From: Eggerthella sinensis
Lineage (GTDB): Bacteria; Actinomycetota; Coriobacteriia; Coriobacteriales; Eggerthellaceae
NCBI RefSeq assembly: GCF_003339815.1
Contig: NZ_PPTT01000005.1
Coordinates: 62,001 to 126,000, forward strand
DNA: 64,000 nt
Direction: 5' to 3'
Both the position numbers and the translations under genes were made by a program. The notes below the pieces were generated by a model. It was given only the letters and a program-made list of their open reading frames with translations, ran no database searches and had not been told where the DNA came from. This document shows positions 12,866 to 16,913 of this stretch, one piece after another (the first letter of the stretch is position 1; each line of letters starts with the position of its first letter).

Positions 12866-13234
12866 GGGGGCGACTGGTTTCGACATGGTACGTTTGAAAT
12901 GAGGAGCAGGTCGTGGTCTCCTCGCCACGTTAAACAGGGGTACCGTCAATTTAATTGGCAAGAACAACACTCAGAGCGCTCCGGCGCTCGCCATGGCTGC
13001 TTAATAGCACCAGGCTGTCGACCTTGGAATGTCCCCGATCCTCGGTTCGGCATCAACTCAGGGGAATGCGCTTGAGCACGTAGCCGGTATGGCTCAGGCA
13101 AAGATCGAACCGGCTAGGGTGCGTCTCGCTTGTCCGCGGGCCGGCCGCATCCGAACCTCGACCACGGACTAAGCTTGTAGAGCCTCATGGATTATGTAGT
13201 ATGGACCGGAGTTCGATTCTCCGCGCCTCCACCA
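12866..13234 (+). ncRNA. ssrA: tmRNA (transfer-messenger RNA)
   Basis: Rescues ribosomes stalled on broken mRNA together with SmpB, encoded 2 kb away. The 5' end GGGGGCG pairs with CGCCTCC near the 3' end, giving the tRNA-like acceptor stem with G-U at the third pair. The T-arm GGAGTTCGATTCTCC and encoded CCA close the tRNA domain. The internal reading frame begins at GGC after TTTAATT and encodes the tag GKNNTQSAPALAMAA, ending TAA at about 13004. The tag ends MAA where many bacteria have LAA. The last 15 bases and the terminator behind are duplicated 1.16 kb downstream. Confidence 0.95.
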
Positions 13235-13289
13235 CCAATGACAGGGCCCCCGCCGGCATCGCCGACGGGGGCCCTTTGCGTGCGCGGGG
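13220..13289 (+). repeat. Left copy of a perfect 70-bp direct repeat (attL-like)
   Basis: These 70 bases cover the last 15 bases of ssrA including CCA and the ssrA terminator. The identical 70 bases occur at 14378-14447. The bases on either side differ (C before and G after here; T and A there), so the repeat is exactly 70 bp. Confidence 0.95.
13243..13277 (+). terminator. Rho-independent terminator of ssrA
   Basis: The stem AGGGCCCCC / GGGGGCCCT, extended by GCCGGC-type inner pairs around loop ATC, ends in TTT. It lies eight bases past the tmRNA CCA and inside the left 70-bp repeat. A second copy sits at 14401-14435. Confidence 0.8.
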
Positions 13290-13448
13290 GAAGAGCGGAG
13301 GCTCAAATGCCAATCTCATCGATTGCCCGCCCAATGCGATGAACGCTTTTCATAGCATTTCCCTCTCCATTGTTTTGGATTTTCAGATACGCGAATTAGA
13401 CATATTCTCAATTGCCCTTATCTTATCGCCTCCTGTTGCAATTATTAC

Positions 13449-13856
13449 TCATTTTCGTTTGGCATCTTTCGGATTCGATTCATCAAACAGCTTTGCACCC
13501 GCAAGCATGCCTATCGCAACCAGGGCAAGAGCACTAAGCGGAACCATCCAGATTGGATACTGTGGAAGACCAGAAAACGAATGACCGAACAAAGTGCAAG
13601 CAGCCGCAAAGAGCAGAATGGTAACCGCTACTTCGGCATTGTCTTTCCACGTCATTGTGCCAATACGCTTTACTATCTGTTTTCTCAAACGCACAAGAGC
13701 AGCCATCTCGTCAGGTTTAGCGTTGATCCTCCACCCGTTGTATATACTAATCTTTGCGTTTAAAGCTTGATTATTGACCATATTAAGAAGAAGGCTTACA
13801 AGTATCGTTAGAAGCGAGCCTATTACCGCCCCTAACAGTCCCACATAATCTTGCAT
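13449..13856 (-). CDS. Small membrane protein of the ssrA insert, unknown function
   Basis: A 135-residue protein with an N-terminal membrane helix (YVGLLGAVIGSLLTILVSLLL, residues about 4-24), a charged central segment (about 25-72) and two further hydrophobic helices (EVAVTILLFAAACTLFG and IWMVPLSALALVAIGMLAG). The tail SNPKDAKRK is basic. Codon use is AT-rich, unlike its neighbours, consistent with transfer. I do not recognise the family. It is the only credible gene of the insert, so it may be cargo with a protective or silencing role, but nothing in the sequence shows this. Confidence 0.6.
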   Translation of the reverse strand: MQDYVGLLGAVIGSLLTILVSLLLNMVNNQALNAKISIYNGWRINAKPDEMAALVRLRKQIVKRIGTMTWKDNAEVAVTILLFAAACTLFGHSFSGLPQYPIWMVPLSALALVAIGMLAGAKLFDESNPKDAKRK

Positions 13857-14377
13857 TACTGCACTTTCCTTTCAAATAGATTATCTTAATTATCATCTTA
13901 CCAAAACAAGATCAAGTCACCCGAAAAACTCACAATGAGGCTTGGCGCTTTTGTTGCCACAGCATACCGATAGCTTCACTTATCAATTAGTTTTTCGCGA
14001 TCAAGATACCCTACCTTCGCCAATCGCACAGGACCTTGCGGGTATCACACACAAGGTCCTTTTCGTGTGCGGACGCGGCGAACGCTACCCCATCATAATT
14101 CTTCAGGCTGTTTATGACCTTCGTTTTACTAGCACTTATGCACGTCGATGGGTTGCAACACCAATTTAGACGAATCCCTTTCACATGCATAAACCCACGC
14201 CGCAACCCACCCTCTCGACATCCTCCATTCTTAAGGTTTAGTGCATTGCGAGAACCTTCCTTAATTGCACCGAGCTTAGCTTGCTTGTCGAGCCTTATCG
14301 TTGTTGGCAAATCCAGTTCGTTACTTCTGTTATGTTCCTCATCATTTCTGATTTTCGCTGATTTCACCCACTCCGAT

Positions 14378-14447
14378 TCCGCGCCTCCACCACCAATGAC
14401 AGGGCCCCCGCCGGCATCGCCGACGGGGGCCCTTTGCGTGCGCGGGG
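14378..14447 (+). repeat. Right copy of the 70-bp direct repeat (attR-like)
   Basis: Identical to 13220-13289. It carries the last ssrA bases without the rest of the tmRNA, plus a complete copy of the terminator hairpin (14401-14435). The terminator ends 17 bases from the stop of the convergent acidic-protein gene, so this copy marks the original chromosomal junction. Confidence 0.95.
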
Positions 14448-14452
14448 ACGCC

Positions 14453-15262
14453 CTACTTCTTCAGAATGGACGTGAAGTCGAAGGCGCTCTTGATGTCGTC
14501 GAAGGCGCCTTTGAGCTCGGCGGCTACGGCGATGCCGTCCTTGTAGATGGCGTTCATGTCGCTCGTGGCGGCGGCGACGCCCTCCTTCGTGATGCCGAAG
14601 TCGAACTCGTTGTCGTCGTCGGAAGCTTCGCCTTCCTCTTCCTCGACGTAGAAGTACTCCACCTCTTCGCCGTCTTCCTCGAGCACGAAGCCGATGACGT
14701 CGCCGTCCTCGTCCTCGATGTAGCGCACGATGTCATCGTCGTCGAGCTCGAGCTCCACCAGCTCGTAGCCGTCGTCTTCGGCGCTCGGCTCGATGATGGT
14801 CACGTCCTGCACGTCGTCGGCCTGCCCGTCCTCGAGCTCCTCCAACGCGTTCGCCTCGGTGATCTCGGACACGGCGCCGGCGGTGACGTCGCCGTCCTCG
14901 TCGAGGGCATCGGCATCGTAGGTGTCGAGGGAGCCCTTCTCGTACAGCTCGTCTTCGGCCGCTTCGCGATCGCCGTCGACGATGTGGAAGCCCTCTTCGG
15001 ACAGGTCGAGGCCCGTCTGATCCTCGACGAGCGTGGCCAGGCCGCCGTCGCCGACGGGCGAGGTCTCGCCCTCGCCATCGGGGCCCTCCTCGGCGAAAAA
15101 GCCCTCGTAGGCCTCTTCGAGGTCGGTTTCCTCGTCCTGCGGATCGAACTCTTCGTCGTCCTGGAACTCCTCGACGTCCTCGAGTTCCGTCTCCTGGTCG
15201 ATCTGCTCGGCTTCCGTCTCGGCGCCGTCTTCGATGGTATCCAGTTCCTCGTCCAAGCCCAT
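14453..15262 (-). CDS. Highly acidic protein of unknown function, next to smpB
   Basis: A 269-residue protein in which Asp and Glu dominate nearly the whole length, with very few basic residues until the last 40, where a short less biased segment (MNAIYKDGIAVAAELKGAFDDIKSAFDFTSILKK, split across residues about 235-269) may form a helix pair. There is no signal peptide or membrane segment. I do not recognise a family. It begins 21 bases after the smpB stop and is probably co-transcribed with the M42 peptidase and smpB. Such composition suggests a nucleic-acid mimic, a chaperone-like tail or a metal-binding spacer; none can be chosen from sequence. Confidence 0.75.
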   Translation of the reverse strand: MGLDEELDTIEDGAETEAEQIDQETELEDVEEFQDDEEFDPQDEETDLEEAYEGFFAEEGPDGEGETSPVGDGGLATLVEDQTGLDLSEEGFHIVDGDREAAEDELYEKGSLDTYDADALDEDGDVTAGAVSEITEANALEELEDGQADDVQDVTIIEPSAEDDGYELVELELDDDDIVRYIEDEDGDVIGFVLEEDGEEVEYFYVEEEEGEASDDDNEFDFGITKEGVAAATSDMNAIYKDGIAVAAELKGAFDDIKSAFDFTSILKK

Positions 15263-15283: not shown

Positions 15284-15748
15284 TTAGCGGCTGCGTTCCT
15301 TGAGCGCGCGCTCCACCTCGCGGCGGGAATCGCGCGCCGCCATGGTCGCCCGCTTGTCGTAGAGCTTCTTGCCGCGCGCGACGGCCAGCTCCACCTTCAC
15401 GAGCGAATTGTCCTTGAAGTACATCTTCACGGGCACGAGCGCCATGCCCTTCTCTTTCACCTGCTCCTGCAGCATGCGGATCTGCTTCTTGTGCAGCAGC
15501 AGCTTGCGCTTGCGGTCGGGATCGGGGTTGGCGATGTTGCCGTTCACGTACGGCGGGATGTGCACGTTGTGCAGCCACACCTCGCCGTCGCGGATGAGCG
15601 CGAAGCAGTCGGTGAGCTGGCAATGGTTCTCGCGCAGCGAGCGCACCTCGGTGCCCGTCAGCTCGATGCCCGCCTCGAGCGATTCGAGGATCTCGTACTC
15701 GTGGAACGCCTTTTTATTCTTGGCGATAGTCTTTTCTTCGCGTTTCAC
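15284..15748 (-). CDS. smpB: SsrA-binding protein SmpB
   Basis: Binds tmRNA and brings it to stalled ribosomes. The 154-residue protein shows IAKNKKAFHEYEILESLEAGIELTGTEVRSLR at the N-terminus, NIANPDPDRKRKLLLHKKQI in the middle and RGKKLYDKRATMAARDSRREVERALK at the C-terminal tail, all family hallmarks. The start is GTG 15748, with AGG six bases upstream overlapping the stop of the M42 peptidase gene, indicating translational coupling. An upstream ATG at 15814 lies inside the peptidase gene and would add non-conserved residues. The partner ssrA lies about 2 kb away on the opposite strand, convergent. Confidence 0.96.
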   Translation of the reverse strand: MKREEKTIAKNKKAFHEYEILESLEAGIELTGTEVRSLRENHCQLTDCFALIRDGEVWLHNVHIPPYVNGNIANPDPDRKRKLLLHKKQIRMLQEQVKEKGMALVPVKMYFKDNSLVKVELAVARGKKLYDKRATMAARDSRREVERALKERSR

Positions 15749-15755
15749 GGCCGGC

Positions 15756-16913
15756 CTACTCCACGCCCGTTTCGTCGAACTGCATCTGCGCGGCGGACTC
15801 GTCGTCGGCCGCATCAGCGTCGTCCTCGGTGACCGCGTCGCCCATGCCCGGCACGAAGCAGGCGTCCTCGCCCAAATCGCGCGCGAAGCGCACGAGCAGC
15901 TTCACCGTGGCATCGAGGTCGTCGAGGCTCACCACTTCGGTGGGCGTGTGCATGTAGCGCAGCGCCACGGACACGAGGCCGGTGGGGATGCCGCCGCGGG
16001 TGATCTGGATGGAGCGCGCATCGGTGCCGGTGACGCCGGGCTCGGCCTCGATCTGGTACGGGATGCCCTCGGCCTCGGCCGCCGCCACAAGGCGCTCGAA
16101 CACGGCCGGGTTGATGTTGGGGCCGCGCGCGATGACGGGGCCTTCGCCGCACACGATCTTGCCGTACTTCGTCTTGTCGATGCCGGGATAGTCGGTGGCG
16201 TGCGTCACGTCGAAGGCCACGGCCACATCGGGGTTCACGCCGTAGGTGGACGTGATGGCGCCGCGCGTGCCGATTTCCTCCTGCACGGTGGCGGCCACGA
16301 TGAAGTCGCCGGGAGCGCGGCCTTCCTCGGCCAACGTCTCGAGCACGCGCGTGGCAATCCACACGCCCGCCTTGTCGTCGAAGGCGCGCGACACGGCCAT
16401 GTTCTTGCCGAAGCGCTCGAAGCCCACGCCGAAGGTGATGACGTCGCCCACCATGACGAGCTTCTTCACGCGCTTCGCCGGCATGCCGAGGTCGATGACC
16501 AGCTTGTCGATGGGCGTGACGCTCTTGCGCTCGTCGGGCTCGATGAGGTGGATGGGCTTGCGGCCCACCACGCCGCGCAGCGGTTCCATGGAGTTGGAGG
16601 CGTGCACGTCCACGCGCATGCCGGGCAGGATGGCCGCGTCCACGCCGCCCACCGACGACACGGACAGAAAGCCCTCGTCGGAGATGTAGGTGACCATGAG
16701 GCCGATCTCGTCCATGTGGGCGGACAGCATGAGCGAAGGCGCCACGCCCGTGCCGGAAAGGCGGGCGTGCACCGATCCCATGACGTCGGTTTGAATCTCG
16801 TCGGCCGTACCGGCCAGGCGCTCGCGCACGAGCTCGGCCACGGCGATCTCGGTGCCGGTGGCGGACGGCGTCTCGAGCAGTTGCTTGAGGAATTTCACCT
16901 GCTTGTTCTTCAT
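15756..16913 (-). CDS. M42 family metallopeptidase (glutamyl aminopeptidase-like)
   Basis: A cytoplasmic dinuclear-zinc aminopeptidase. The zinc ligand and catalytic motifs AHMDEIGLMVTYI (about residues 65-77), RAFDDKAGVW (about 180), VQEEIGTRGA (about 215) and AFDVTHATDYPG (about 234) occur in the order of the family. The final YMHTPTEVVSLDDL includes the last metal-binding histidine. The C-terminus has an acidic tail. It starts at ATG 16913, and its stop overlaps the smpB ribosome-binding site. Members release N-terminal residues from short peptides; a link to tag-peptide recycling would be speculation. Confidence 0.92.
   Translation of the reverse strand: MKNKQVKFLKQLLETPSATGTEIAVAELVRERLAGTADEIQTDVMGSVHARLSGTGVAPSLMLSAHMDEIGLMVTYISDEGFLSVSSVGGVDAAILPGMRVDVHASNSMEPLRGVVGRKPIHLIEPDERKSVTPIDKLVIDLGMPAKRVKKLVMVGDVITFGVGFERFGKNMAVSRAFDDKAGVWIATRVLETLAEEGRAPGDFIVAATVQEEIGTRGAITSTYGVNPDVAVAFDVTHATDYPGIDKTKYGKIVCGEGPVIARGPNINPAVFERLVAAAEAEGIPYQIEAEPGVTGTDARSIQITRGGIPTGLVSVALRYMHTPTEVVSLDDLDATVKLLVRFARDLGEDACFVPGMGDAVTEDDADAADDESAAQMQFDETGVE

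Follow-up and report, generated by a model that had tools for sequence, protein, structure and literature searches.

At the 3' end of ssrA, the tmRNA gene, of Eggerthella sinensis lies a small insert of low-GC DNA, enclosed between two identical copies of the tmRNA tail and its terminator. With about even confidence we read this insert as the integrase-less remnant, much like a cis-mobilizable element (CIME), of an island that entered the ssrA 3' end by site-specific recombination. The locus belongs to a stretch of 64,000 nucleotides (contig NZ_PPTT01000005.1, positions 62,001 to 126,000), here called the window; coordinates without another label are counted from its first letter. The genome of the window (G000), a 4.0-Mb draft, was compared with three others of the same genus (G001, G002 and G003) and with more distant relatives.

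The ssrA gene (12866..13234, + strand) is intact: it is found by ARAGORN and matches Rfam RF00023 over its full length with 170 bits. The final 15 nt of the mature tmRNA open a block of 70 nt (13220..13289, + strand), reading TCCGCGCC...GCGCGGGG, that extends 55 nt past the end of the tmRNA, through the terminator hairpin (13243-13275) and about 12 nt beyond it. The block recurs on the same strand at 14378..14447, 1158 nt away from start to start, with 100% identity (0 mismatches); chance is excluded as the source of such a repeat. The first 16 nt of the left copy are also the core of the island in G001 that is described below; the right (distal) copy, which stands at the orthologous position in G003, may be taken as the attR core together with the original host terminator. 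Between the two copies are 1,088 bp (13290..14377) of 44.8% GC, as against 65.9% for the window, and in them a single convincing gene, for a 135-aa small membrane protein (P0001). Integrase and transfer genes were sought in the insert by gene calls, profile libraries and tblastx, and none was found. An earlier note, made from the letters of the sequence alone, had described just this: an exact 70-bp repeat at the ssrA 3' end, a low-GC insert of about 1.09 kb, one small membrane-protein gene and no integrase. (A technical note: the genome is in 75 contigs, and a draft might hold a separate circle, or a mixed population, merged into one contig. The locus sits inside a 200-kb contig, however, the repeat is only 70 bp long, and one-contig genomes of the genus have inserts here too; we consider an effect of assembly very improbable.)

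The ssrA ends of the relatives carry the argument for site-specific entry. The single-copy empty site that the earlier note had proposed to look for is found in G003: one tail and terminator, then directly the gene of an acidic protein, smpB and a gene for an M42 peptidase; between its flanks and those of the window identity is 84-87%. (In the window the acidic-protein gene, whose function is not known, lies at 14453..15262 and smpB, identified by Pfam PF01668, at 15284..15814, both on the - strand.) The site is likewise empty in G030 and G100, which belong to one other genus; there ssrA is followed immediately by the acidic-protein gene and smpB. The window insert is missing from the orthologous ssrA end of G003, as is looked for generally in an ssrA island. 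Other inserts occupy the same place elsewhere. G001 has 2,947 bp (46.4% GC) after the ssrA end, closed by a second TCCGCGCCTCCACCAC; the repeat is of 16 bp, begins TCCGCG and is the same core as in the window, and the genes enclosed encode a helix-turn-helix protein, a ParE/RelE-type toxin and two proteins with no family assignment, with no integrase seen. G002 has 6,832 bp, closed by a second CTCCACCACT (a repeat of 10 bp), and its insert opens with a 510-aa large serine integrase, encoded on the minus strand and abutting ssrA (PF00239, 8.7e-36; PHROG integrase, 6.3e-74). An integrase 57% identical to this one stands at the equivalent ssrA position in G116, and at E<=1e-30 there is no other match in 138 genomes of the family; the distal border of the G116 island was not found within the 10 kb examined, and a search of viral contigs gave no relative of the G002 integrase. 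In G103, of another genus, the insert (L083:5409-6320) is of 0.9 kb, has only a DUF6290/ParE-type pair and has 15 bp of the ssrA end as its flanking repeat. That the site is empty in G003 and filled differently in G001 and G002 marks ssrA as a landing site in the genus and makes the window insert, on these sequence comparisons, the derived state. The earlier note's signature of site-specific integration in ssrA thus holds, as an acquired insert at a site that is in use and that the integrases of G002 and G116 abut.

These two integrases have a peculiarity of their own: the last codons of their genes (G002, L033:3403-4935; G116, L082:8750-10279) are read antisense from the ssrA 3' end. In the circle predicted for the G002 island the integrase frame remains open and acquires a longer and different tail: from stop to stop it spans 541 residues, compared with 517. 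The C-terminus of the integrase may therefore change when this island integrates; an open frame of such length could also be chance.

Small inserts with no integrase seen recur at ssrA (1.1 kb in the window, 2.9 kb in G001, 0.9 kb with its DUF6290/ParE pair in G103), and the family has large serine integrases that are specific, by position, to the ssrA end. Might the insert then be a minimal cassette or satellite, with a true attP of about 70 bp that comprises tmRNA tail and terminator, relying on a different ssrA island to supply the integrase in trans? The repeats of G001 and G103 are of 16 and 15 bp, not 70; G000 has neither a G002-type integrase at E<=1e-30 nor a CCGCGCCTCCACCAC site apart from the two known ones; the insert is without relatives in the genomes and contigs searched, and no helper was found; and an attP identical to the species' own terminator would require recent capture anyway. 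A satellite mobilised in trans, as the earlier note had also suggested, is so far without support, and we think it unlikely. Unlikelier still, and offered as a speculation, is the general form of the idea: that ssrA in this family hosts a class of tiny cassettes of about 0.9-3 kb, each with a membrane protein or a toxin-antitoxin pair and no integrase, which borrow the large serine integrases of other ssrA islands to move in trans, some with the host terminator captured in attP, leaving tmRNA expression intact after each move.

What is odd about the window is the ssrA side of the insert. In G001, G002, G103 and G116 island-specific sequence, with hairpins that look terminator-like by eye, follows the ssrA core directly, as is expected because the part of attL beyond the crossover derives from the island; in G001, G002 and G103 the host-type terminator comes after the distal copy. 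The left copy in the window, unlike these, carries the host terminator in the place where the island's own sequence should stand. The earlier note had rightly called 70 bp long for a core attachment site (the repeats in G001, G002 and G103 are of 16, 10 and 15 bp) and had rightly seen that the repeat includes a terminator; the purpose that it proposed, to preserve termination of the tmRNA after insertion, is weakened by the other islands, where the core is followed at once by the island's own hairpin. In the 54 nt past the core the two window copies are identical to each other, while identity is 81% to G003, 81% to G002 and 67% to G001; therefore either the duplication happened recently or conversion has acted on the copies. 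Judged from sequence, the island may have carried a very recent copy of the host terminator, or tail and terminator may have been duplicated locally, or the copies may have been made alike by conversion.

From what is observed (the insert, the empty site of a relative, a common landing site, no integrase, identical copies) we infer a parent island and one of two routes from it to the present state. The parent would have used a core within TCCGCGCCTCCACCAC for site-specific entry at the ssrA 3' end, and what survives of it would be its right end, with a membrane protein as the single cargo; duplication of that right end would have included the host's ssrA tail and terminator, which would make the repeat longer than the core. 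By the first route, an unequal exchange would fuse an internal point of the island, today's position 13290, with the first base after the host terminator, so that right end, core and terminator are duplicated as a unit; the full island, integrase included, would then be lost by a precise excision that recombines the ssrA core with the first distal core. By the second, an aberrantly excised circle carrying the host core and terminator, in the manner of a specialised transducing phage, would re-enter the empty ssrA site by homology. Either route would account for the order of the parts, for the absence of an integrase, for two copies without a single difference and for a repeat whose end coincides with no functional boundary. 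The empty sites of G003, G030 and G100, the other ssrA-end inserts of G001, G002 and G103, the G116 integrase, the low GC content and the lack of relatives all point toward a decayed island that has lost its integrase, which was also one of the earlier note's suggestions and is the best-fitting of the readings.

Several things weigh on the other side. Neither the parent island nor a relative of the insert was found in the genomes and contigs searched, so that a "right end of an island" is something we infer rather than see; no direct sign of the proposed exchange was found at 13289/13290; the window and G001 inserts have only the core in common, and their ends are unlike; and tail-plus-terminator duplications with other spacers exist without signs of an island, which admits a purely local origin.

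Such a local event would need no integrase. At the terminator hairpin, slippage or a template switch would duplicate tail and terminator, and foreign DNA would be taken in between the copies. In a survey of ssrA ends (53 regions, with the tmRNA found in 51; the loci were picked by tmRNA match and represent part of the family) direct duplications of tail and terminator without an integrase occur in four other genomes: G032 (201 bp spacing, 90% identity), G034 (137 bp, 98%), G052 (204 bp, 99%) and G147 (155 bp, 90%). G002, too, has its ssrA-type terminator repeated 3.4 kb further on. In all four of the short-spaced cases, however, the tail is present a further time in inverted orientation, as 12-18 bp beyond the terminator. 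The window has no such copy: its best inverted match is of 6 bp, a length reached by 126 of 200 shuffles. The distal copy in the window begins, moreover, at the same base as the distal core in G001, which fits a recombinase core. Origin of the repeat by local duplication, which the earlier note had named as the finding that would speak against its own reading, is accordingly a real possibility, to which we give distinctly less weight than to the decayed island.

The inverted copies deserve mention for their own sake. Six of the 51 loci have, past the ssrA terminator, 12-28 bp of the tmRNA T-arm/acceptor tail in inverted orientation: L086 (G032), L118 (G034), L133 (G052), L129 (G147), L135 (G059) and L127 (G143). 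Four of the six have the direct duplication, at 137-204 bp, and palindromic spacers. Template switching at the hairpin and a small palindromic element are candidates for their origin; that the window repeat is a mobile palindrome of the kind seen in these six genomes was considered and rejected, on the 6-bp inverted match just described. The two ssrA-type terminators of G002 (L033:10281-10350 and L033:13735-13790) enclose, in the 3.4 kb between them, the gene of an EAL-type regulator and what appears by eye to be that of a substrate-binding protein; in G002 and G003 the stem pattern of this terminator has matches only at the ssrA locus.

The open reading frame of P0001 (13449..13856, - strand), characterized by translation and database searches and regarded as cargo, has an ATG start, a plausible ribosome-binding site (AAAGGA, 10 bases upstream) and, judged by eye, three hydrophobic stretches in its product. 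P0001 is an orphan: PHROGs, PADLOC and NCBIfam gave no match and Pfam gave sub-threshold matches only, while a protein search of GTDB and viral contigs gave no relatives; seven other weak matches, of at most 20.2 bits, were not accepted as such. Its predicted structure (mean predicted local distance difference test score, 58.8) is too poor for a structure search, and a role in island maintenance or defence would be a guess. As DNA, the insert matched two of 138 family genomes (G000 itself and, over 25 bp, G124) and one of 396 genomes of the class (again G000), and phage and plasmid records gave no relatives; tblastx against the loci of neighbouring ssrA islands gave nothing better than E 0.017. 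An exact 25-base tail pattern was found in no viral or GTDB contig; G003 has the pattern, so the genus may be absent from those contigs. No literature on ssrA islands of Eggerthella was found, judging by titles.

Within the insert a terminator-like hairpin with no gene ahead of it (14010..14072, + strand, in a region reaching to 14110) was considered as a third, decayed copy of ssrA tail and terminator, which would make the insert composite. Against the G003 reference its score was reached by 0 of 500 and 0 of 300 shuffles, and against the window's own copy by 20 of 500 and 4 of 300. Real sequence, taken as 260 chunks (130 stretches, both strands), was scored in a loose and a strict way: 3 and 15 chunks, respectively, reached the G003 score, 19 and 60 the best score over the four references, and 172 and 125 the summed score. 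The case is borderline and is not relied on.

For most readers this will be an ordinary decayed island, in which the duplicated host terminator is the unusual detail. Through it ssrA is recognized as a place where islands land in this genus, and the remnant has host sequence, not the island's own, at its border with ssrA. Should the history indeed be one of duplication and then excision, a long repeat with a terminator in it would be the trace of an island that has left, and would be misread by those island finders that look for an integrase and short attachment-site repeats.

How does the insert compare with known systems? CIMEs, as outlined in PMC5704250, are decayed integrative and conjugative elements, or integrative and mobilizable elements, that retain attL and attR. 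Measured against that outline the window insert has neither integrase nor transfer gene (P0001 being its only convincing gene), its cargo is small, and its borders are direct repeats of the end of the target gene, that is, the 70-bp repeat with the 16-bp core common to G001; it differs in that the repeat contains the host terminator and in that a parent element was not found in the searches made. The serine-integrase islands of G002 and G116 share the landing site at the ssrA end and the bacterial family with the window; they differ in having an integrase and sequence of their own after the core, and they have no notable DNA or translated match to the window insert. The genomic islands at ssrA of Dehalococcoides, in the part of the account (PMC3146451) drawn on here, target the same gene; 15 of the 31 have no integration module, and the proposal was made that these are cis-mobilizable elements; theirs are a 20-bp repeat, tandem arrays, reductive dehalogenase cargo and another phylum, and the DsiB-type serine recombinase module that adjoins attL in the islands described there has no counterpart in the window insert. 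The CIME is the closest class for this insert, and the Dehalococcoides islands are its closest parallel at ssrA.
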